DNA of 38,327 nucleotides from Armatimonadota bacterium (GTDB lineage: Bacteria > Armatimonadota > Zipacnadia > UBA1398 > JAKPQA01): assembly GCA_029547025.1 (NCBI GenBank), contig JAKPQA010000150.1, positions 1 to 38,327 on the forward strand, read 5' to 3'. The position numbers were made by a program, and so were the translations under genes. Numbering within the stretch: the stretch's first letter is position 1; every line of letters begins with the position of its first letter. The notes below the pieces were generated by a model. That model worked only from the letters and a program-made list of their open reading frames with translations. It was not told the DNA's origin and ran no database searches. Below are positions 6,891 to 38,327 of the stretch, one piece after another.

Positions 6891-8084
6891 ATGACGATGG
6901 ACTCTCTGCTCCAGCAGCTCCAGACCTATGTGATCCCCACTCCCGGCCGCGCGCCCATCGCGTTTGTGAGAGGCGAGGGCATGAAGCTGTGGGATGTGGA
7001 GGGCCGCTGCTACACCGACTTCCTGGCCGGCATTGCGGTGTGTGGCCTTGGCCACTGCCATCCCAAGGTCGTCGAGGCCATCCAGAAGCAGGCCGCGACG
7101 CTCATGCACACGTCGAACCTGTACATCATCCCGCCTCAGATGGAGCTCGCCGAGCGGCTGGCCGGCACGTGTGACCTCAAGCGATCGTTCTTCGCGAACA
7201 GCGGCGCCGAGGCCAACGAAGCGGCCATCAAGATCGCCCGCAAGTACGGCCGGACGCACGGCGGCGAGAGCAAGACCCGCATCATCGCGGCCCACAACTC
7301 CTTCCATGGCCGTACCACCGGTGCCCTGGCGGCCACGGGCCAGCCCAAATACCAGTCAGCCTTCGAGCCCCTGATCCCCGGCTTCACGTTCGTCGACTAC
7401 GCCGATGCCGCCGCCGTTGCGCGCGCGATGGACGACACCGTCTGCGCCGTGCTCGTCGAGCCCATCCAGGGGGAGAGCGGCGTGCGCGTGCCGCCCGACG
7501 GCTACCTCACCGAGCTTCGCAAGCTCTGCGACCGGTACGACGCGCTGCTCATGCTGGACGAGGTTCAGACGGGCTTGGGCCGCACCGGCTACTGGTACGG
7601 GTACATGCACGATGGCGCCATCCCCGACGTGATGACCCTGGCCAAGTCGCTGGGCGGCGGGTTCCCCATCGGAGCCGCCCTGGTGAACGACCGCGCCAAC
7701 GTGCTCGTGGCCGGCGACCATGCCTCGACCTTCGGCGGCAACCACCTGGCCTGCGCCGCCGCCAATGCCGCGCTGCAAGCCATCGCTGAGGAAGGCATGG
7801 TCGAGAACTCGCGTCAGGTCGGCGCGTATGCTCTCGAGCAGTTCCGTGGCCTCGCCGCGAAGCATGGACAGATCCGCGACGTCCGCGGCCGCGGTCTCAT
7901 GCTTGGCATAGAGGTCTCCGACGAGTCGGCGCAGGATCTGAACAAGGGGCTGTTCGCCCGAGGCTACATCGCCAACGCGATCGGCACGGCCGTGCTGCGC
8001 ATCCTCCCGCCGCTGACGGTCAACCGCGAGGATGTCGACGGCTTCGTCTCGGCGCTGGACGACTGCTTGTCGGCGCCACGGTAG
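6891..8084 (+). CDS. argD: Acetylornithine aminotransferase ArgD
   Basis: 397 residues, class III pyridoxal-phosphate aminotransferase. It interconverts N-acetylglutamate semialdehyde and N-acetylornithine. Visible marks are the SGAEANEAAIKIARKYG segment, SFHGRT, the LLMLDEVQTGLGRTG cofactor region, and the PLP lysine K252 in LAKSLGGGFPIGA. The C-terminal RILPPLTV motif is also present. ATG at 6891 is chosen because the earlier in-frame ATG (6819) adds a non-homologous extension; GAAGGG is a modest ribosome site. Members of this family may also act on succinyl-diaminopimelate. With argJ and argB it covers the acetylated part of the pathway except argC, which is not in this window. Confidence 0.92.
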   Translation: MTMDSLLQQLQTYVIPTPGRAPIAFVRGEGMKLWDVEGRCYTDFLAGIAVCGLGHCHPKVVEAIQKQAATLMHTSNLYIIPPQMELAERLAGTCDLKRSFFANSGAEANEAAIKIARKYGRTHGGESKTRIIAAHNSFHGRTTGALAATGQPKYQSAFEPLIPGFTFVDYADAAAVARAMDDTVCAVLVEPIQGESGVRVPPDGYLTELRKLCDRYDALLMLDEVQTGLGRTGYWYGYMHDGAIPDVMTLAKSLGGGFPIGAALVNDRANVLVAGDHASTFGGNHLACAAANAALQAIAEEGMVENSRQVGAYALEQFRGLAAKHGQIRDVRGRGLMLGIEVSDESAQDLNKGLFARGYIANAIGTAVLRILPPLTVNREDVDGFVSALDDCLSAPR

Positions 8085-8122
8085 CGGGGGCGGGTCGAGC
8101 CACAGGAAGGGATGGTCGCACC

Positions 8123-9514
8123 GTGTCCTGGACTCGACGGGGGTTCCTGGCCGCCGCAACTCTCGGCGCCGGAGCCGTCACCTCGCCCGCTGCCTCGGCA
8201 GGCGACGGTCCGGATGGCCTGGCCGCCATCGACACCATGCCCAACCTCTGCGCTCACGAGCACTGGGGCAGCCTGACATCCATCGGCCACACGGATGTGG
8301 GGTTCGTTGCCGATGCGGTCGCGGGCGCCGCGTCGGGAGAGACGGGACTCCTCGACCTACTGCTCGATCCCTACCTCGGCGGCTTCTTGGCTTGCGGGGG
8401 GTTCGACGGCAACCGGGCCGCGCGCGAGCTCGGCTGTGAGAGCCTGCCCGAGGCCATTCACCAGCGGCCCGAAGGCGTCCTCGAGGCCCTGCGACCCCAC
8501 CTCGCCACGCAGCGTTCGGTCGGCACACTGATGTGCATCGCCACCGGTGTGCGGGAGCTGTACGGCTTCGACCTGGACGGACTCTCGGCGGCCAACTGGC
8601 GCGAGCTGGACGCCGCCATCCGGCGTCACTACACCGACCCGTTCGCCTGGTACCGCGAGGCCATGGGGCGCGCGCACCTCACCGGACCCATCCGCCCGGT
8701 CGAGCTCAGCTACATGCTCGAGGCGGCCGACCCGGCCCTGGCGGCCCATGAACGAGCGTTCACCCATGCGCTCCTGCGGGTCGATGGCTTCATCGAGTGG
8801 CGGCGGCGACCCAGCGATCGCGTCCGCTACTGCATCGAGCGCACCGGCATCGAGCCCCACGATGCCGCCAGCTGGCGGGCGCTGCTCGAAGCGACCTTCG
8901 CCCTCGCACAGGAGCACGGCTGCGTGGGCATCAAGCAGCTCCAGGCCTACTCGCGTGACCTGGAGTTCGCCCCGCATGCCGATGGGGACATCGACCTGGC
9001 CGATGACTCGCCGCCGGCGGTACGCGCCTTCGAGGATTTCACCGCCCACGAGTGCTGCCGGCTGGCGCACGAACTGAGCTGGCCGTTTCAGGTTCATGTC
9101 GGCACCGCCAACCTGCCCCGCTCGAGTCCCCTTCCGCTCGAGGCGCTCGCCTATCGCTACCCGGGTGTCCGTTTCGTGCTGCTCCACACGTGGCCGTATT
9201 TCGATGAGTCCGCCTACCTGGCCCACTTTCTTCCCAACGTGTATATCGACACATGTTGGCTCGCGATTCTGAGCCCGTCGTTCCTCGAGGAGGCGCTGCG
9301 GAAGTACATTGGCTTTGTGCCCTCGCACAAGCTCATGTGCTCGCAGGACGCCACCAGCATCGAGATGGCCGTTGGTTCGGCGCGCCACAACCGCACCCTG
9401 CTGCGCAAGGTGCTCGGCGAGCAGGTGCGCGACGGCCGTTTCACCAAGCATCAGGCCCTCGAAGTTGCCCGCCGCGCCCTCCACGACAACGCGCGTGGGG
9501 TCTACGGGGCGTAG
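8123..9514 (+). CDS. Tat-exported amidohydrolase-superfamily protein
   Basis: 463 residues, GTG start with AGGAAGGG upstream. The N-terminus carries a twin-arginine signal (SWTRRGFLAAATLGAGAV, then an alanine-rich stretch ending ASA), so it should be exported folded. The rest looks like the Amidohydro_2 TIM barrel: a metal-binding HxH in CAHEHWG near residue 44, a histidine in QVHVGTAN, another in LLHTWPYFDES, and an aspartate in CSQDATS. These residues are what the metal-dependent hydrolase/decarboxylase superfamily uses. The substrate is not evident. It is followed by a second Tat-exported, sugar-isomerase-like protein, which suggests a shared extracytoplasmic role, perhaps on a sugar acid or carbohydrate-derived compound. 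Confidence 0.8.
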   Translation: MSWTRRGFLAAATLGAGAVTSPAASAGDGPDGLAAIDTMPNLCAHEHWGSLTSIGHTDVGFVADAVAGAASGETGLLDLLLDPYLGGFLACGGFDGNRAARELGCESLPEAIHQRPEGVLEALRPHLATQRSVGTLMCIATGVRELYGFDLDGLSAANWRELDAAIRRHYTDPFAWYREAMGRAHLTGPIRPVELSYMLEAADPALAAHERAFTHALLRVDGFIEWRRRPSDRVRYCIERTGIEPHDAASWRALLEATFALAQEHGCVGIKQLQAYSRDLEFAPHADGDIDLADDSPPAVRAFEDFTAHECCRLAHELSWPFQVHVGTANLPRSSPLPLEALAYRYPGVRFVLLHTWPYFDESAYLAHFLPNVYIDTCWLAILSPSFLEEALRKYIGFVPSHKLMCSQDATSIEMAVGSARHNRTLLRKVLGEQVRDGRFTKHQALEVARRALHDNARGVYGA

Positions 9515-29692: not shown

Positions 29693-31567
29693 ATGAAAGA
29701 AAGCCATGCCGATCGTTTCGCTCGCCACGCGGCCCCGGGGCGGCGCTTGCGCGGGCTCCAACTCACCGACCTGGTCGATGTACAGACCCTCCAGGAGGCC
29801 CAGGAGCGATTCGCCGAGCTGGGCCGTGTGGGGATCGTCATCCGGGGCCCCGACGGCCAGATGATCACACAGCCAAGTTGCCTCAACGAGTTCTGCTCGG
29901 CCCTCCTGTGCCACCCGGAGCTCTCACGCCAGTGCCAGGCTTCCCACAACGAGGTGCCGGCCGAGCCGGGGCATGAGCATGGTGTCCAGGCCTATGCGTG
30001 CCATGCGGGCCTGCGGCAGTTCGCCGCCCCCATCGTGGTCCGGGGGCGCACCTACGGCACCATCATCGTCGGGCCGGTGGCCGACCAGGAAATGGACCCC
30101 GCCACCCTTCACCGTCTGGCGGGCCAACTCGGCCTCCCGGTCGACGAGGTCCGGCGTCAGGCAGCCACCGTGCGACGGTGGTCCGATCAGGAGGCCGGCA
30201 TCCTGGTTCGCGGCCTCGAGATGACTGCCCGCAACATCACCGAGCTGTGCCTGGCGGGCTACGATCTGCGATGCACCGTGGAGGAACTCCGGCTCGTCCA
30301 GGAAGTCGGACACGAACTGGTGGCCGATCGCAGCCTCGAAGACACCATGAGCCTCATCGCCCGCCGAATCACCGGCATCTTCGGCGCCAAGGCGTGTCTC
30401 ATCCGCCTCTTCGAGACCGATCGGGGAACCACCAAGGTGCTGGCCTCGCACGGCCTGAGCCAGGAGTACCTCCAGAAGGGCCCGGTGGGCGTGGCCACCG
30501 AGCTCGAGCGCGTGGCCATCGAGGGCGCCGTATCGGTGATCGAGGACATCGAGAAGGACGAGCGCTTCGTCTACCGGGATGCGGCCCGCGAGGAAGGGCT
30601 TCGCTCCGCCATCTACGCGGGCCTCATCTGCCGCGGCAAGGCCCTGGGCGGGCTCCGGCTCTACTTCGGCGAGCCCCGCGAGACGGACGAGAGCGAGCTG
30701 CGCCTCGTGCGGGCCCTGGCCGACCAGGCGGCTCTCGCCATCGAGAACGCCCGCCTCATCGACAGCCTCCGCCGCGCGAACCAGCGCCTACGTGAAGCCT
30801 ACGAGCTCATGCACGGAGCCCAGGACAAACTACGCCAGACCGAGCGCCTGGCGGCCCTGGGAGAGATGGCCAGCGGCATCGCCCATGAGGTCAAGAACCC
30901 CCAGGCTGCCGTCTATGGCCTGGCGCGCCTGCTCCGCGATCAGCACGACCAGATGTCGCCCGAGCAGGTGCGCGAGTTCCTGAACACCATCATGCGCGAA
31001 GCCAAGCGGACCACCGGCATCGTGGACATGGTTCGCCAGTTCAGCCGGGAGCGTCAGGCCGGCATGACGGTGGTCCCGGTCACCGAGGTACTAGACGACG
31101 TCATCGCGCTCCAGCGCTTCGACGAGGCCGTCCGGCGCACGCAGATCGAGACCGAGTACGCGTGCCACCCGGAGGTCGACGGCAATGCCGACCGGCTACG
31201 GCAGGTGTTCCTTAACCTCATCCGCAACGCCGGCCAGGCGCTCCAGGGCCGGCCCGACGGCCGAATCATCGTCCGGGTGCGGCAGGAGGACCAGCAGGTC
31301 ATCATCGAGGTGGCCGACAACGGCCCGGGTGTCCCGGCCGAGATCCAGGAGCGGATCTGGGAGCCCTTCTACACCACCCGGGGCGCCGAGGGCACCGGCC
31401 TTGGGCTCGACATCTGCCGCCAGATCGTCGCCCAGCACCGGGGCACCATCGGACTCGAGTCGGAGCCCGGCCGCGGCGCCACCTTCACGGTGCGACTGCC
31501 CGCCTCGGGCTCGCGGCCGCCCGAGGAAACCGAGGACGCCAACAGCGACGGCGAGAACGACGCGTAG
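29693..31567 (+). CDS. PocR-GAF sensor histidine kinase
   Basis: 624 residues; GGGGAG lies before the ATG. A PocR sensory domain occupies about 20-175, with its cysteine-rich segment (CLNEFCSALLCHPELSRQC) and FAAPIVVRGRTYGTIIVG. A GAF domain follows (about 200-360), starting VGHELVADRSLEDTMSLI. The kinase core has the phospho-accepting H398 in GIAHEVKNP, the N box RQVFLNLIRNAGQAL, and DNGPGVPAEIQERIWEPFY plus GTGLGLDI of the ATP-binding domain. No membrane segment is seen, so it should be cytoplasmic. PocR domains bind small hydrocarbon-type ligands in known cases. No response regulator lies beside it. Confidence 0.92.
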   Translation: MKESHADRFARHAAPGRRLRGLQLTDLVDVQTLQEAQERFAELGRVGIVIRGPDGQMITQPSCLNEFCSALLCHPELSRQCQASHNEVPAEPGHEHGVQAYACHAGLRQFAAPIVVRGRTYGTIIVGPVADQEMDPATLHRLAGQLGLPVDEVRRQAATVRRWSDQEAGILVRGLEMTARNITELCLAGYDLRCTVEELRLVQEVGHELVADRSLEDTMSLIARRITGIFGAKACLIRLFETDRGTTKVLASHGLSQEYLQKGPVGVATELERVAIEGAVSVIEDIEKDERFVYRDAAREEGLRSAIYAGLICRGKALGGLRLYFGEPRETDESELRLVRALADQAALAIENARLIDSLRRANQRLREAYELMHGAQDKLRQTERLAALGEMASGIAHEVKNPQAAVYGLARLLRDQHDQMSPEQVREFLNTIMREAKRTTGIVDMVRQFSRERQAGMTVVPVTEVLDDVIALQRFDEAVRRTQIETEYACHPEVDGNADRLRQVFLNLIRNAGQALQGRPDGRIIVRVRQEDQQVIIEVADNGPGVPAEIQERIWEPFYTTRGAEGTGLGLDICRQIVAQHRGTIGLESEPGRGATFTVRLPASGSRPPEETEDANSDGENDA

Positions 31568-31586: not shown

Positions 31587-32834
31587 ATGCACGCAGTCCG
31601 CCCAGTGGTCTTTCACACGCTCGACGAGGCACGTCAGGCCATGGCCCATCTCGGCGCCGACGGCCGCCGGATCGAACTGATGGCCGCCAAGTCCGTTCAC
31701 CGCTGCCTCTACATCCCCGACCTCCCCGTCCGCGCCGCGGTCATCCTCAAGCAGGAGATGCTGGCCAAGGGCGGCGAGGCCGTGCTCCCCTGGGAAGCCC
31801 TGTGCCTCCGGGGCGAGAGGACGGCCGTCCTTCTCTGTGGCACGCTCCGCCAGTACGCCAACGTCTGCCTGACACTGCGCGACCAGCCCTTCGGCTTGCC
31901 CGAGCTGGCGGTCCGGATCGAGGCGTGCCTGCACCGGGGCGCCGGTGATGGGGCCCCACGGGCACTGCGGATCGGCAACGCCGCATGGCCCCTCGGTCGG
32001 CGCACCTATGTCATGGGCATCGTCAACATGACCCCGGACTCCTTCTCGGGCGACGGCCTCGCGCCGGACGAACCGGCCGTCGCTCGCGCTGTGGCCCGGG
32101 CCCAGCAGATGTGCGCCGACGGCGCGGACATCATTGACGTGGGCGGCGAATCGACCCGCCCCGGCGCCGAGCCTGTCGATGCCGACGAGCAGACACGGCG
32201 CGTGGTCCCCCTGATCCGCGAACTGGCCGCTCTCGGCATTCCGGTGTCGGTCGACACCCGCAGCGCCCGGGTGGCCGAGGCCGCCATCGCCGTGGGTGCG
32301 GTTCTGGTCAACGACGTCACCGCGCTCACCGGCGACCCCGACATGCGTCGCGTCTGCGGCCAGGCCGGTGTCGCGGTCTGCCTCATGCACATGCGGGGCG
32401 ACCCGGTGAGCATGCAGGCGAATCCCACCTACGAAACGGACGTGGTGCTCGAGGTGGCCCAGTTCCTCGAGCGCCAGGTCGAGGTGGCGTGCGCCGCGGG
32501 GGTGGATCCCGGCGCGATTCTCGTCGACCCGGGCATCGGGTTCGGCAAGACGGTCGACCACAACCTCGAGCTACTGCAGCGTCTCGACGAACTCCGGACC
32601 CTCACCGCCCAGCCGGTGCTCGTGGGGACTTCGCGCAAGTCGGTCATCGGCCAGGTCCTCGGCCTGCCCGTGGACGACCGGCTCGAGGGAACCGCCGCCA
32701 CCGTGGCCTGCGCCATTGCTCGGGGCGCCGACATGGTGAGGGTGCACGATGTGAGGGAGATGACTCGGGTTTGCCGGATGACCGATGCAGTTCTTCGTCG
32801 CGAGGTGCGGATCGCATCATCCTCCAGGGGATGA
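31587..32834 (+). CDS. folP: Dihydropteroate synthase with N-terminal extension
   Basis: 415 residues from the ATG at 31587, with GGAGGAG directly upstream. The enzyme joins the pterin pyrophosphate with p-aminobenzoate in folate synthesis. The catalytic TIM barrel runs from about residue 145: VMGIVNMTPDSFSGDG, IIDVGGESTRPGA, the DPGIGFGKTVDHNLELL region, and GTSRKSVIG. The first ~130 residues are an extra domain absent from typical ~280-residue enzymes; it includes HRCLYIPDLPVRAAVILKQE and PWEALCLRGERTAVLLCG. Similar extended enzymes are known in other phyla. It overlaps folB by at least four bases. Confidence 0.94.
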   Translation: MHAVRPVVFHTLDEARQAMAHLGADGRRIELMAAKSVHRCLYIPDLPVRAAVILKQEMLAKGGEAVLPWEALCLRGERTAVLLCGTLRQYANVCLTLRDQPFGLPELAVRIEACLHRGAGDGAPRALRIGNAAWPLGRRTYVMGIVNMTPDSFSGDGLAPDEPAVARAVARAQQMCADGADIIDVGGESTRPGAEPVDADEQTRRVVPLIRELAALGIPVSVDTRSARVAEAAIAVGAVLVNDVTALTGDPDMRRVCGQAGVAVCLMHMRGDPVSMQANPTYETDVVLEVAQFLERQVEVACAAGVDPGAILVDPGIGFGKTVDHNLELLQRLDELRTLTAQPVLVGTSRKSVIGQVLGLPVDDRLEGTAATVACAIARGADMVRVHDVREMTRVCRMTDAVLRREVRIASSSRG

Positions 32835-33169
32835 TCTTCCGGGGCCACCACGGAGTCTCCGAGGCCGAACGGAGTCTGGTGCAGCGCTTCCGCGTCGACG
32901 TGGCCCTCGAGCTCGACCTGCAGCCCGCCGCCCGCGCCGACGATCTCAGCCGGGCGTGCGACTACTCCCGGGTGTTCGAGACCGTCCAGCACTTGGTCGA
33001 GAAACGGACCTTCCAGCTCCTCGAGACCCTCGCCGAGCGCATCGCCGAGGCCATCCTCGACGGCTTCCCCGCGGTCACCGCCCTGACGGTGGGTGTCTTC
33101 AAGCCGGATCCACCCATGCACGGCACATTCGAGAGAGTCGGGGTCGAGATATGCCGCACCCGGCCGTGA
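32771..33169 (+). CDS. folB: Dihydroneopterin aldolase
   Basis: The conserved protein begins at about 32810 (DRIILQGMIFRGHHGV), upstream of the only in-frame ATG (32831). The likeliest start is therefore the TTG at 32771, with GAGGGAG eleven bases before; this gives 132 residues and a 64-base overlap with folP. Starting at 32831 would remove the first strand. The family splits dihydroneopterin to the hydroxymethyl pterin. QRFRVDVALELDLQPAA, the ACDYSRVFETV segment, LLETLAERIAEAIL and the C-terminal VFKPDPP match it. Its stop lies inside the folK start region. Confidence 0.85.
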   Translation: MPDDRCSSSSRGADRIILQGMIFRGHHGVSEAERSLVQRFRVDVALELDLQPAARADDLSRACDYSRVFETVQHLVEKRTFQLLETLAERIAEAILDGFPAVTALTVGVFKPDPPMHGTFERVGVEICRTRP

Positions 33170-33759
33170 CTCGAGCCTACCTGGGCCTGGGCAGCAACCT
33201 GGGCGACCGGTTGGAGGCGCTCCGCCGGGCCGTCCGCGAACTCGCCACGACACCCGGCATCGTGGTTCGCCATGTGTCCAGCTGCTACGAGACGGCCCCG
33301 GTCGGCCCCGTGAACCAGGGGGACTTCCTCAACGCCGCCCTGGCGATCGATACCGATCTGTTGCCCGAGGAGCTTCTCGGTGCATGCAAGGCCATTGAGG
33401 CCCGCATGGGCCGCCAGGCCCGCCAGCGCTGGGGCCCGCGCGAGATCGACATCGACCTGCTGCTCTTCGGGAGTGTGACGCTCCAGGGCGGTAACCTGAT
33501 TCTCCCTCACCCGGAGATGACGCAGCGGGCCTTCGTGCTGGTCCCTCTGCTCGAGATCGCCCCCGGCCTCACCCTGCCCGACGGACGCCCCCTCCGTGCC
33601 CTACTGGCCAACCTCGGCGACGTCTCGGGCATCAGGAAGCGGGACGGAGACCTGAGCCCCGAGGCGCCTCCAGGGGTTCAGGCATCCGGGGCAGATGCGA
33701 CTGGCCCTGCGGGATCGGAGCGGGCACATGCCGCTGTTCCAGCTCGAGACGCGCAATGA
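33151..33759 (+). CDS. folK: 2-amino-4-hydroxy-6-hydroxymethyldihydropteridine pyrophosphokinase
   Basis: 202 residues from the ATG at 33151, which overlaps the end of folB by 19 bases. It activates the pterin for FolP. YLGLGSNLGDR, YETAPVGPVNQGDFLNA, RWGPREIDIDLLLFG and LPHPEMTQRAFVLVPLLEIAP are all standard. The known family ends around residue 160; the last ~40 residues here (rich in D, G, A, P) are an extension that overlaps the next gene by 32 bases. This forces translational coupling of folate synthesis with the platform-protein genes that follow. Confidence 0.94.
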   Translation: MPHPAVTRAYLGLGSNLGDRLEALRRAVRELATTPGIVVRHVSSCYETAPVGPVNQGDFLNAALAIDTDLLPEELLGACKAIEARMGRQARQRWGPREIDIDLLLFGSVTLQGGNLILPHPEMTQRAFVLVPLLEIAPGLTLPDGRPLRALLANLGDVSGIRKRDGDLSPEAPPGVQASGADATGPAGSERAHAAVPARDAQ

Positions 33760-34900
33760 AGCGGGCCAGGTACAGACCCGGAGGGTAGCGGCCGAGTCGC
33801 AGGTCGCCGCCGTCCGGATGCTGCGGGCCCGCGGCGAGTTCGTTGTCCGCGGCCAGCGCGTGACCCGCCGCCGGATGGGCGACCCGCTGCGTTCGCTCCG
33901 CGCCGCGGTGTGGCCCATTGGCCCGCGCGCCCTGGCCCTGCTCTTCGCCCAACTGGCCGACCTGATCCGCGCGGGCTTCAGCACCGCGAATGCCCTCGAA
34001 CACCTGGCCGGCCAGACCACCGAGCGCCGGCTGGCCTCCTTCTGCCGGGAGGCCGCCGCCGACGTGGCCCGAGGCATCCCGCTGTCCGAGGCCATGGCCC
34101 TTCGCCCCGATCTGTTCGAGTCCTGGGTGTCCGCCTCCGTCGCCGTCGGTGAACAGACCGGCCGACTCGATGTGATGGCCTCTCTGCTCGAGCAGGAGTT
34201 CCGCACGCAGACCCAGTTCGGCCGGCGGTTCACCGTGGCGGCCATCTACACCCGCGCCATCCTCGTCTTCGCCGTCTTGGCCGCCACCAGCCCCGCCGTC
34301 ATCCACGTGGGGCTCTCGGGCTGGCTCGTGAGCCTCGCCGAGATCGGTGGCCTCGCCTATGTGGGATGGAAGTTCCTGCACATCATCAGCCGGTTCGCCT
34401 GGCCGCGGGCCCTACTCGCTGGACTCAGCCGGTTCGTGCCCGTGTGCGGCTCCCTGCGCGGCAGCCTGTCCCGGTTGAGGGCGCAACGGGCCCTGCGGGA
34501 GCTCATCAGGGCCGGCATCGATCCCCCATCGGCCTTCGAGTTCGCCGCCCCTGTCTCCGGTGGCGGCAGCTCCGGGCGAGGGCTGCGCAGGGGGGCCGAC
34601 GTGCTCCGGGCCGGCGGCAGCTTCGGCAGAGCCTACCGCGCCACCGGCCTCTTCGGCCAACGCGAGGCCGGGCTCATGGAGACCGCCGAGGAGACTGGCG
34701 AGCTCGATAGCATGATCGACGAGACCGTCCAATCCCTCGAGGACTCGGCCGACCACGCGGCGCTGCGAGCCACCTACTGGGGCTGGGGCTTACTGATCCT
34801 GGTCTCCGTGGCGGTCACCGTCCTGGCCATCTACCTCGGCACGAGCGGGTACGTCAATGCGCTGCTGGAATGGTTCGATGACATGATGGAGGGGATCTAG
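33728..34900 (+). CDS. GspF/PilC-family inner-membrane platform protein 1
   Basis: 390 residues from the ATG at 33728, inside the end of folK, with GGAGCGGG before it. It has the N-terminal segment typical of the family (MPLFQLETRNEAGQVQTRR) and then two T2SSF domains. Each has the conserved helical motif, here IPLSEAMALRPDLFESWVS...GEQTGRLDVM and SFGRAYRATGLFGQ...EETGELDSM. Three membrane segments follow the usual pattern (about 185-215 and near the C-terminus). GspF/PilC anchors the ATPase and prepilins in type II secretion or type IV pili. No ATPase or prepilin gene is in this window. Confidence 0.85.
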   Translation: MPLFQLETRNEAGQVQTRRVAAESQVAAVRMLRARGEFVVRGQRVTRRRMGDPLRSLRAAVWPIGPRALALLFAQLADLIRAGFSTANALEHLAGQTTERRLASFCREAAADVARGIPLSEAMALRPDLFESWVSASVAVGEQTGRLDVMASLLEQEFRTQTQFGRRFTVAAIYTRAILVFAVLAATSPAVIHVGLSGWLVSLAEIGGLAYVGWKFLHIISRFAWPRALLAGLSRFVPVCGSLRGSLSRLRAQRALRELIRAGIDPPSAFEFAAPVSGGGSSGRGLRRGADVLRAGGSFGRAYRATGLFGQREAGLMETAEETGELDSMIDETVQSLEDSADHAALRATYWGWGLLILVSVAVTVLAIYLGTSGYVNALLEWFDDMMEGI

Positions 34901-34904
34901 CTCC

Positions 34905-36089
34905 GTGGGCGTGTACCGCGTGACGGTCCGGGATGCCGCGGGCGAGACCAGGGCCACCACGGTCCAGGCGGCCGACCCCACGGCGGCCGCGCGCGCCATG
35001 CAGGCCCGCGGGCTGTTCGTCTCACAGGTTGACCTGGCGCCTCGGGTAGCCACCGGCGACGCGGTGGGAGGGCTCCATGCCCGGGTCTTCCCGGTGTCGG
35101 CCGACGCGCTGGCCCTCTTCTTCCGGCACCTGGCCGCGCTGACCAAGGTCGGGCAGACGCCCGCCGCCGCCCTAACCTCGATGGCCTCTCGAATGACCGA
35201 TCGGCGCCTGGCCGCCTTCGCGAACCGCGCCTCCGCCCGGTGCGCCGACGGGGAGCCTCTGTCGGCCGCGGTGTGCCTCGAGCCCGTCCTGTTCCCTCAG
35301 TGGGTCGCCGCCATGGTGGCCGTTGCCGAGCAGAGCGGTCGGCCCAACGAGATCCTGGGGCACATCCGGTCCGAGCTGGACGACGAAGCGCGGCTGGCGG
35401 CGCGCTTCCGCCTGCCCCGGGTCTACCTCCGCGTCGCGGCCGCCCTCGCCGCACTACTGCTGAGCTCCGGAACACTAGTCAGCGGGGGCGTTCTGCCATG
35501 GCTCCGGGGGGTGCTCACCGTCTATCTCCCGGCGCTCGCAGTGCTCCAGGCCATGGTGTGGACCGGCAGAGCCTTCGTGCGTCATCCGTCCATGCGCGAT
35601 CTGCGGGAGTCGCTCATCGCCCTGGTGCCCGGCGCCGGCGCCCTCCAGCGCGAGAGAGGCCTCCTGCGGTTCGCCCGGTCCATCCGCGCGCTGAACCGGG
35701 CCGGACGAAGCGTACCGGAGGCATTCGCCCTGGCCGTGCCCGTCGCGGCACAACGGCCACTGGTCGCCGGCCTGGAACGGGGTGCCGCGGCGCTCATCCA
35801 AGGGGCGTCACTGGCTCAGGCCTTCCAGGCAACAGGACTCTTCGACGGTCACCTGGTCCGGCTCGTGGCCGAGGGCGAGCGCACCGGCAGGGTCGACCAG
35901 ATTGTCAGTGGGCTCTGCCAGGAGCAGGAACGTCGCGTCGCCACCGCGCAGCGGACGACCTTCTACGTGATCTGGGGCGCGCTCATAGCGCTCAGCCTGC
36001 TCGTGATCGGCGCCGGCGCCGTCGGCGGGCTCGTGTCGCTCATGGCGGGCCTCATGCGCAAGATCCTGGAGTTCATCAACACGTTCTGA
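34905..36089 (+). CDS. GspF/PilC-family inner-membrane platform protein 2
   Basis: 394 residues from a GTG start only four bases after the previous stop. N-terminal domain YRVTVRDAAGETRATTVQAA, then two T2SSF repeats: EPLSAAVCLEPVLFPQWVA...AEQSGRPNEI and ASLAQAFQATGLFDG...GERTGRVDQI. Membrane segments are seen at about 180-215 and at the C-terminus (ALIALSLLVIGAGAVGGLVSL). It is clearly related to, but strongly diverged from, its neighbours, so the copies are old. It presumably forms part of the same platform. Confidence 0.84.
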   Translation: MGVYRVTVRDAAGETRATTVQAADPTAAARAMQARGLFVSQVDLAPRVATGDAVGGLHARVFPVSADALALFFRHLAALTKVGQTPAAALTSMASRMTDRRLAAFANRASARCADGEPLSAAVCLEPVLFPQWVAAMVAVAEQSGRPNEILGHIRSELDDEARLAARFRLPRVYLRVAAALAALLLSSGTLVSGGVLPWLRGVLTVYLPALAVLQAMVWTGRAFVRHPSMRDLRESLIALVPGAGALQRERGLLRFARSIRALNRAGRSVPEAFALAVPVAAQRPLVAGLERGAAALIQGASLAQAFQATGLFDGHLVRLVAEGERTGRVDQIVSGLCQEQERRVATAQRTTFYVIWGALIALSLLVIGAGAVGGLVSLMAGLMRKILEFINTF

Positions 36090-36289
36090 CACGGAACCCA
36101 CAGCGCCAGGAGGCTCGTCCCGTTCCCCCCCAGGCCGGGCGTCCTCTCAGGCAACGATGGCCCGCGTTGGAGAGCGGAATGGCCCGGGCGCCGCTCGGCG
36201 CTTGCGTGGGCGGTCCCGAGGTGAGACCCTATGGCCCGGGCGGGCGCCCATGGCCCACCATGTGCCCACCATGCGCTGGAGGTGTCCCG

Positions 36290-37459
36290 ATGCCCCTGTT
36301 CCGCTATGTCGCGCGAACACAGGCGGGCGAGACCGTCCGGGGCAGACTGACCGCCGAGAGCGCCGAGGCCGCCTCGCGGACCCTCCACGCCCGGGGCCAG
36401 GCGCCCATCGCCGTGGCGCTCGAGACCGAGGCCGAAGCTCCGGTCGTCACCCACGCGCCGTTGCCCCGGCTGAGGGCGGCGGGCGGGCGCCTCTCCGGCG
36501 TGGCCCTTGCCCGTTGGCTTCGGGCGCTCGGGGCCTACCTGCTCGAGACCGGATCGGTCGACGATGCCCTGCGCCGGATGGCCGCCTCGGGCGCCGGCAG
36601 CTCCGGCTCGATGCGCGCCCTACAGGCCGCCGTGGCCCGGGGCAAGCCGCTCGCCGAAGCCATGGCCGAACAGCCCGCGCACTTCGACGCGCTGGCCGTC
36701 GAGCTGGTACGGGCCGGCGAACGCAGTCGGCGACTCGGGCCCGCATGCCTCGAGGCGGCCGAGGTACTCGAGAAGCATCGCCCCCTCACCTTCCGAGCCA
36801 TCGTGTTCGGATCCAACCTGTGGTCATACTTCACCATCTATCTACCGTGCACGCTGCTCATCGCGTTGGTAGCGCTTCTGCCGGTGGCCCTCGTGGCCGG
36901 GCTGGCCTGGCTGCTGCGGCTCGATCCGGTGCGGCGGTGGCATGGGCTGCGCTACAGCCTGCCCATACTGGGGCCTCTGTACCGCAGCACCTGCTTCTCG
37001 CGGTTCACCCAGGCCTTCGCTGCCTGCGCCGTGGTCGGCGTGCCACTGGCGACCAGCGTGGAGCTCTCCATCCGGCGCATGGGCGACCGCCAGGCCGAGG
37101 CCACGATCCTGCCGCGGCTGCGGAGCGTGGCGCATGGAATGAAGGTCTCGGAGGCCTTCCGGCTCGATCCCAGTTTCCCGCAGTGGGTGGTGAACGTGAT
37201 CCGGACGGCCGAGGAAACCGGCCGGATGGACCTGGCGGCGGCGAAACTCACGGACTACCTTCAGGATGACACCGAAGAGGCCGTCGACCGCAGCGTTGGA
37301 CTGCTCCTGTGGCTTCTGCCCGCACTGGTGGGGTTGGTCATACTGGCCCTGCTCCTGCTGGCCTATCTGGGCTACGCGGGGGCCATCGGCATCGACATGC
37401 CCGGGCCCGGTGAGGCATGGCGCAATCTGTGGAGCGGCCGCCGCGGGGCGGGGCCATAG
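36290..37459 (+). CDS. GspF/PilC-family inner-membrane platform protein 3
   Basis: 389 residues; GGAGGTGT lies before the ATG at 36290. It has MPLFRYVARTQAGETVRGR, the closest N-terminus to canonical GspF, then T2SSF repeats: KPLAEAMAEQPAHFDALAV...GERSRRLGPA and MKVSEAFRLDPSFPQWVVN...EETGRMDLA. A long hydrophobic stretch near 190-225 (LIALVALLPVALVAGLAWLL) and a C-terminal one (LPALVGLVILALLLLAYLG) complete the fold. A 200-base gap, with no gene I can see, separates it from copy 2. Confidence 0.86.
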   Translation: MPLFRYVARTQAGETVRGRLTAESAEAASRTLHARGQAPIAVALETEAEAPVVTHAPLPRLRAAGGRLSGVALARWLRALGAYLLETGSVDDALRRMAASGAGSSGSMRALQAAVARGKPLAEAMAEQPAHFDALAVELVRAGERSRRLGPACLEAAEVLEKHRPLTFRAIVFGSNLWSYFTIYLPCTLLIALVALLPVALVAGLAWLLRLDPVRRWHGLRYSLPILGPLYRSTCFSRFTQAFAACAVVGVPLATSVELSIRRMGDRQAEATILPRLRSVAHGMKVSEAFRLDPSFPQWVVNVIRTAEETGRMDLAAAKLTDYLQDDTEEAVDRSVGLLLWLLPALVGLVILALLLLAYLGYAGAIGIDMPGPGEAWRNLWSGRRGAGP

Positions 37460-37480
37460 GGCCAGGAGAGGGGACCACGG

Positions 37481-38327
37481 ATGCCGCAGTTCCGCTATGA
37501 GGCGCGCACGGCAGAGAACCAGTCGATCAGCGGCGTGATGCAGGCCGACGACGAACGCGCCGTCGTGGCCGAACTCGTGGCCATGGGGCACATGGTGACC
37601 GCCGTCAAGCGAGAGCGTGTCGCGGCCCTGATCTCGCCGCGAACCGGCGTCTTCGACCGTCTCTTCTTCCGCGCGCGCACCAAAGATCTCGCCTTCTTCT
37701 CCCGCCAGATGGCGCACCTCCTCGGCTCCGGCATGTCGGTGGGCGAGGCCCTGAACCTGCTCCAGAGCCGCGTCCGCAACAAGAAGCTGCGCACAGCGCT
37801 GATGCACATGGGGCAGCGCGTCCAGGACGGCGCCCCCCTGTCCGGCGAGATGCGCCAGTTCCCCACGCTGTTCCCCGAGAGCCTGGTCTCGATGGTCGAA
37901 GTGGGCGAGACCTCGGGCGACCTGGCGGGCATGTTCGAGCAGGCGGCCCGCTACCTCGACAACGAGCACAAGATCCGCAGCAAGATCTCGCTCTACACCT
38001 TCTACCCCAAAGCACTGCTCGTGTTCGCCCTCCTGATCAGCACGGTGCCCACGTTGTTCCTCGTCGGCACGGGAGAGTGGCTGGTCCAGGTTGCGGCGAT
38101 GGCCGCCCAAATCGGCATCCCTCTCGTGGTTCTCTGGGTCGCCTTCCGCATCGCCCTGGGGTATCCCACCATCGCCCTCGGCTACGATCGCTTGAAGCTC
38201 GCCATTCCGTGGTTGGGCGGCGTCGTCCGCAAGTTCTGCGGCGCCCGATTCTGCCGGTGCCTGGGCTACCTCTACCATGCCGGTGTGCCCATCGTCTCGG
38301 CGACCGACGTGGGCGCCAAGAGCTGCG
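37481..38327 (+). CDS. GspF/PilC-family inner-membrane platform protein 4 (cut by window end)
   Basis: At least 282 residues; the frame is open to the last base, so the gene is incomplete here. AGGAGAGG lies about ten bases before the ATG. MPQFRYEARTAENQSISG opens the N-terminal domain. DLAFFSRQMAHLLGSGMSVGEALNLL and APLSGEMRQFPTLFPESLVSMVEVGETSGDLAGMF form the first T2SSF repeat, which is the most canonical of the four. Two membrane segments follow (ALLVFALLISTVPTLFLVG and IGIPLVVLWVAFRIALG). The second repeat begins just before the cut (FCRCLGYLYHAGVPIV). Confidence 0.87.
   Translation, partial: MPQFRYEARTAENQSISGVMQADDERAVVAELVAMGHMVTAVKRERVAALISPRTGVFDRLFFRARTKDLAFFSRQMAHLLGSGMSVGEALNLLQSRVRNKKLRTALMHMGQRVQDGAPLSGEMRQFPTLFPESLVSMVEVGETSGDLAGMFEQAARYLDNEHKIRSKISLYTFYPKALLVFALLISTVPTLFLVGTGEWLVQVAAMAAQIGIPLVVLWVAFRIALGYPTIALGYDRLKLAIPWLGGVVRKFCGARFCRCLGYLYHAGVPIVSATDVGAKSC

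Follow-up and report, generated by a model that had tools for sequence, protein, structure and literature searches.

A family of GspF-like proteins encoded directly behind the folate gene folK has been recognized in this study and, as judged from sequence, it is a phylum-wide and little-noticed family of Armatimonadota which lies beside vitamin genes rather than pilus genes. GspF/PilC is a membrane protein whose usual task is the building of filaments in type IV pilus or type II secretion systems. The window analysed here, a complete contig of 38,327 bp (C180) from a 6.3-Mb genome assembly of 369 contigs (G000), carries four such genes in a row. On the evidence of gene order, this array represents an enlarged form of a locus found across the phylum, (folP)-folK-gspF(A)-gspF(B)-J-domain/TPR membrane protein-(panB)-panC.

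Organization of the array

The four genes, F1 to F4, stand behind a group of folate genes, all on the + strand. A folP-like dihydropteroate synthase gene (31590..32834, start approximate; Pterin_bind, Pfam PF00809, E=6.5e-83) is followed by an open reading frame located between folP and folK (32791..33169, boundaries and frame approximate), which we take to be folB-like from its family features and position only, and then by folK (HPPK, 33169..33759; PF01288, E=5.7e-41). Just upstream of folP, a PocR-GAF-histidine kinase gene is present at 29693-31567. F1 (33728..34900) begins inside folK, with an ATG at 33728 (an alternative in-frame ATG lies at 33695) and a stop at 34900, and it overlaps the folK stop at 33759 by ~31 bp. 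F2 (34905..36089) starts with a GTG codon 4 bp past F1, F3 (36290..37459) follows after a gap of 200 bp and F4 (37481..38327) after a spacing of 21 bp. The folK/F1 overlap and the tight spacing suggest that folK and the array are co-transcribed. An RNA element search of the array region returned none.

All four products match the T2SSF domain of Pfam (E=3.5e-26, 5.3e-24, 1.2e-19 and 9.8e-29 for F1 to F4, respectively), and two T2SSF stretches above the curated cut-off were found in each of F1-F3, the second domain of F4 being absent because the contig ends there. The first-pass annotation had described at least four full-length, mutually divergent copies lying head to tail, with the first one starting inside folK. 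The ORF and Pfam calls bear out the order, the + strand, the start within folK and the four T2SSF genes in a row, but F4 is cut by the assembly and only three copies are full-length. The pairwise identity among the four is 26-35%, in keeping with the divergence claimed, and together with the deep homologues it rules out a recent duplication. Neither a T2SSE ATPase nor a secretin or prepilin was matched anywhere on C180, which agrees with the earlier remark that none lies before the array and also rules out that each copy belongs to a complete system of its own at this locus.

The same annotation had proposed a look beyond 38327 for GspE, prepilin and secretin genes; the sequence there probably encodes a J-domain protein and panB-panC instead. 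On another contig of the genome (C145), a gene for a protein with J-domain, TPR-like and TM segments (7270-8340, - strand; L085) starts 17 bp from the contig end and stands before panB-panC. The frame entering C145 from its edge ends in a TGA which overlaps the ATG of the J-domain gene (TGATG), and the gspF-J junction is TGATG in L103 and TAATG in L064, so that C145 likely continues the window. With this probable join, only ~100 codons of F4 would be missing. No secretin or prepilin-motif match was found on C180 and C145 taken together. In the J-domain protein HPD is kept and TPR is present, and C-terminal TM segments were found in the copy of this genome, on which they were tested.

Predicted fold and the two branches of the family

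The AlphaFold models of F1 and F3 have a mean pLDDT of 92 and 83, respectively. The Foldseek matches of F1 were the cytoplasmic domains of EpsF, OutF and PilC (TMt 0.83-0.92), and a profile match to PilC of 3jc8 extends over positions 3-383. Both proteins are predicted to have the ordinary GspF architecture, in which an N-domain is combined with long TM helices and a pair of helical cytoplasmic domains. Against the NCBIfam GspF cut-off of 424, F1-F4 score 87-151 bits (F1 86.7), a cut-off which the type IV pilus PilC proteins of the same genome (370-376), although they score far higher, do not reach either.

Phylogenetic trees of 153 proteins (FastTree) and 80 proteins (IQ-TREE) both place the ATPase-linked PilC/GspF of Armatimonadota and of other phyla in one group and the folK-linked family outside it. 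The trees indicate that the family has two old branches, B being the one closest to ordinary GspF/PilC and A the more degenerate. The B branch holds the second copies behind folK, the single copies of the class and F4, which groups with the copy adjoining panB in an order-mate (G001). The A branch holds the first copies behind folK, lone genes of the class and F1/F2 with their relatives in a second order-mate (G002). Support is strong for the clade of F1 and F2 with the G002 copies but moderate for the deep backbone of A, and some few sequences of the phylum are intermediate. F3 is very divergent and forms a long branch without a settled place; the first tree paired it with a partial gene of G002 (0.976), and its best matches in a search of 251 genomes were B-type copies at folK. 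The G002 homologues of F1, F2 and F3 have roughly 30-37% identity. In several families of the phylum, A and B stand in tandem, and this recurrence behind folK plausibly fits a platform of at least two kinds of subunit.

Conservation of the locus across Armatimonadota

The folK (PF01288) and panB (PF02548) genes were located in 111 relatives and ~100 regions were scanned with profiles built here; the E-values apply to single genomes or local sets, and most of the genomes are metagenome bins, so that absences carry little weight. The folK-gspF junction seen by the first-pass annotation was found to be conserved in the relatives, with gspF directly after folK in 23 of 40 loci taken irrespective of gspF (10/20 from the class and order and 13/20 from elsewhere in the phylum). 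One or two copies are present behind folK elsewhere, and the four of the window are the maximum seen. The next gene in most loci encodes an N-terminal DnaJ domain with TPR repeats and is followed by panB and/or panC; this position of the J-domain gene, between gspF and the pan genes, is kept over the phylum.

The nearest genomes with F1/F2-like genes belong to the same order, and the locus is disrupted in these order-mates. In G001, a mannosidase-like gene (identified by reading of its sequence) is followed by one B-type gspF and panB. In G002, a homologue of the mannosidase-like gene precedes an F2-like and an F3-like gene where a contig ends, and a lone F1-like gene lies on another contig. 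The folK genes of both order-mates have no gspF behind them. In the class, the A-type gspF stands alone beside an unrelated gene of ~730 aa, away from the B-type gene. The ~730-aa protein (L055, L058, L062, L065, L073, L075, L076) likely has a signal peptide, its gene is conserved in several families of the class and the copies tested gave no Pfam match. It was set aside as a functional clue on account of this missing match and of the absence of a homologue from the array locus.

Outside the phylum, F1/F2-like sequence matched mostly ordinary pilB-pilC operons, and in this non-exhaustive scan with F1/F2-like sequence only, neither folK nor panB/panC nor the J-domain gene was found beside gspF. 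No mention of GspF linked with folK was found in the open-access papers searched, the Fimbriimonas genome paper giving gene counts only.

Loss of the pore residues

The PulF protein of Klebsiella is described as a trimeric channel which has its constriction at a Tyr-Pro pair in TMS1 and a Glu-Pro pair in TMS3, and both pairs are reported to be conserved in GspF/PilC homologues, Glu-Pro in all of them (PMC10790770). The control proteins of this study have Tyr-Pro in 50/51 and Glu-Pro in 49/51 cases. B-type proteins have Tyr-Pro in 49/52 and Glu-Pro in 0/51, A-like proteins in 0/40 and 0/39 and the eight intermediates in 3/8 and 0/8, these categories having been set manually with the tree as guide, and the precise alignment column being uncertain in the most divergent A sequences. 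Glu-Pro of TMS3 is thus present in none of the 98 family members with a readable site. Both pairs are missing from F1-F3 (F1 has Y-T in TMS1 and W-G in TMS3), and F4 has Tyr-Pro, its TMS3 lying past the contig end. Since Glu-Pro is lost in all readable members and Tyr-Pro in all those of A-type, the channel proposed for PulF cannot form as described. Of the cytoplasmic signature residues, G114, F128, E140, G143 and G348 (numbering of the PilC on C115) are retained at 94-100% in both A and B, and others fall.

GspF-like proteins of Blastocatellia (L220) and Prosthecobacter (L228) were also seen to have P-L or P-K instead of E-P in TMS3, with no pilB found in the available flank; these are possibly further non-standard platforms in other phyla.

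Pilus and secretion genes elsewhere in the genomes

Three other full GspF/PilC genes are present in the genome of the window, each beside a PilB-type ATPase gene (C115, C262 and C42). Each of these complete systems thus has a PilC of its own, and the array copies are not part of complete systems here; nor are they recent duplicates or pseudogenes, the other situation which the first-pass annotation had named as contrary to its reading. Secretin matches in the genome number 7, and the 59 prepilin-motif matches are spread over it. Three secretin-domain genes in a row were seen at C361:22464-26327. A 903-aa protein has a GspE/PilB-type ATPase domain (C108:79950-81098; L193) and, with gspF absent from the region read, is the sole clear orphan assembly-type ATPase of this genome; in most genomes examined, one or more T2SSE ATPases likewise have no gspF beside them. 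No one clade of orphan ATPases stood out as the partner, as the ATPase tree gave no universal clade matching the family. The loci that were read show no linkage of the folK-linked gspF genes to an ATPase, prepilin or secretin gene, a weak criterion because several real systems have dispersed genes.

Possible function

The explanation which we favour, at a probability of about 0.45, is a diverged hetero-oligomeric platform of A and B subunits which works with an ATPase and pilins encoded elsewhere. The A and B products would form a mixed inner-membrane platform, and this may dock a GspE/PilB-type ATPase and handle pseudopilins; both partners would be encoded elsewhere because ATPases and prepilins are scattered in these genomes. 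The adjoining J/TPR membrane protein may help the assembly of the platform through DnaK, and the vitamin genes would be operon neighbours giving steady expression and not functional partners. The conserved synteny in dozens of loci, the A/B tandem in several families and the split of the family from ATPase-linked PilC/GspF argue for such a mixed platform, and so do the retained cytoplasmic residues, the GspF fold, the orphan ATPases and the spread prepilin matches. It is opposed by the want of a linked ATPase, prepilin or secretin, by orphan ATPases that are not one clade, by the lost pore residues and by the moderate support of the A clade with F3 unplaced. Two genomes (G001 and G102) have B-type genes and no A-type, so A is not obligatory, which also speaks against it.

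The loss of the pore residues can also be read as the mark of a repurposed scaffold, in which the GspF-derived proteins would be joined with the J/TPR membrane protein in a membrane complex that has no motor and takes no part in filament assembly, such as a chaperone-linked scaffold. This is possible, though we hold it doubtful. The near-universal Glu-Pro of the controls is gone from the whole readable family, with Tyr-Pro also gone from A, and the recurrent linkage is to a J/TPR/TM gene, with HPD, TPR and TM segments in its product, and not to pilus genes. However, several cytoplasmic residues of normal platforms are kept, and the J-domain gene, which some genomes (e.g. G097) retain although gspF is missing, is not strictly tied to it. 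Moreover, the single changes Y168C or E370C are tolerated in PulF, and ComGB has Gln-Pro (PMC10790770), so the loss of one residue is no proof of lost function.

A phylum-specific membrane machine may also be imagined, made of A, B and the J/TPR co-chaperone, which has given up the pore and does without pilins, secretin and a dedicated ATPase; we consider this rather unlikely. The exchangeable platforms suggested in the first-pass annotation, with each copy as its own homo-oligomer for a different pilin set or ATPase, are clearly improbable: four divergent copies, scattered prepilins, an orphan ATPase and an A-type gene which stands apart from the B-type one in the class would suit them, but the genome has a single clear orphan assembly-type ATPase, and the A/B tandem in many families favours joint use. 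Neutral tandem duplication with extra copies decaying and no special role, as the copy number varying from 1 to 4 and the long F3 branch might suggest, is very unlikely and largely refuted by the open frames, the confident predicted folds and the long retention implied by the distant G002 homologues of F1-F3.

Few core components of type IV filament machines are as poorly understood as the platform proteins, including the way in which they couple the ATPase to pilin insertion. The folK-linked family, which has kept the fold and several cytoplasmic residues, lost the pore residues and has a recurrent pair of subunit types, offers a natural experiment on the tasks of the single parts of GspF. 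It also indicates that genes of a core machine type can stay in a vitamin-synthesis locus as far back as a phylum reaches; there they would be missed by software which detects such systems from linked ATPase and pilin genes.

Comparison with known systems

The array family resembles GspF/PilC proteins (PulF, EpsF, PilC) in its two T2SSF domains, N-domain, TM segments, predicted fold and several cytoplasmic residues. It differs from them in having no adjoining ATPase, pilin or secretin gene and no Glu-Pro in TMS3, in its tandem copies and, for A-type members, in the absence of Tyr-Pro. TadB/TadC of Tad and Epd pili are also two homologous platform genes in tandem, with a presumed hetero-oligomer as product. 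TadB and TadC have one T2SSF domain each, which has been explained by gene fission (PMC6668835), whereas full copies of the array have two. A Tad platform pair is ruled out by these two domains per protein, and an ATPase gene is absent from the contig; Tad-like single-domain genes of this genome lie elsewhere (C120 and C330). ComGB, whose gene shares the comG operon with those of its ATPase and pilins, is likewise a divergent platform protein, and the class members of the folK-linked family share with it the lack of an N-domain. On the other hand, ComGB keeps Tyr-Pro together with its Gln-Pro (PMC10790770), and this distinguishes it from the folK-linked family.
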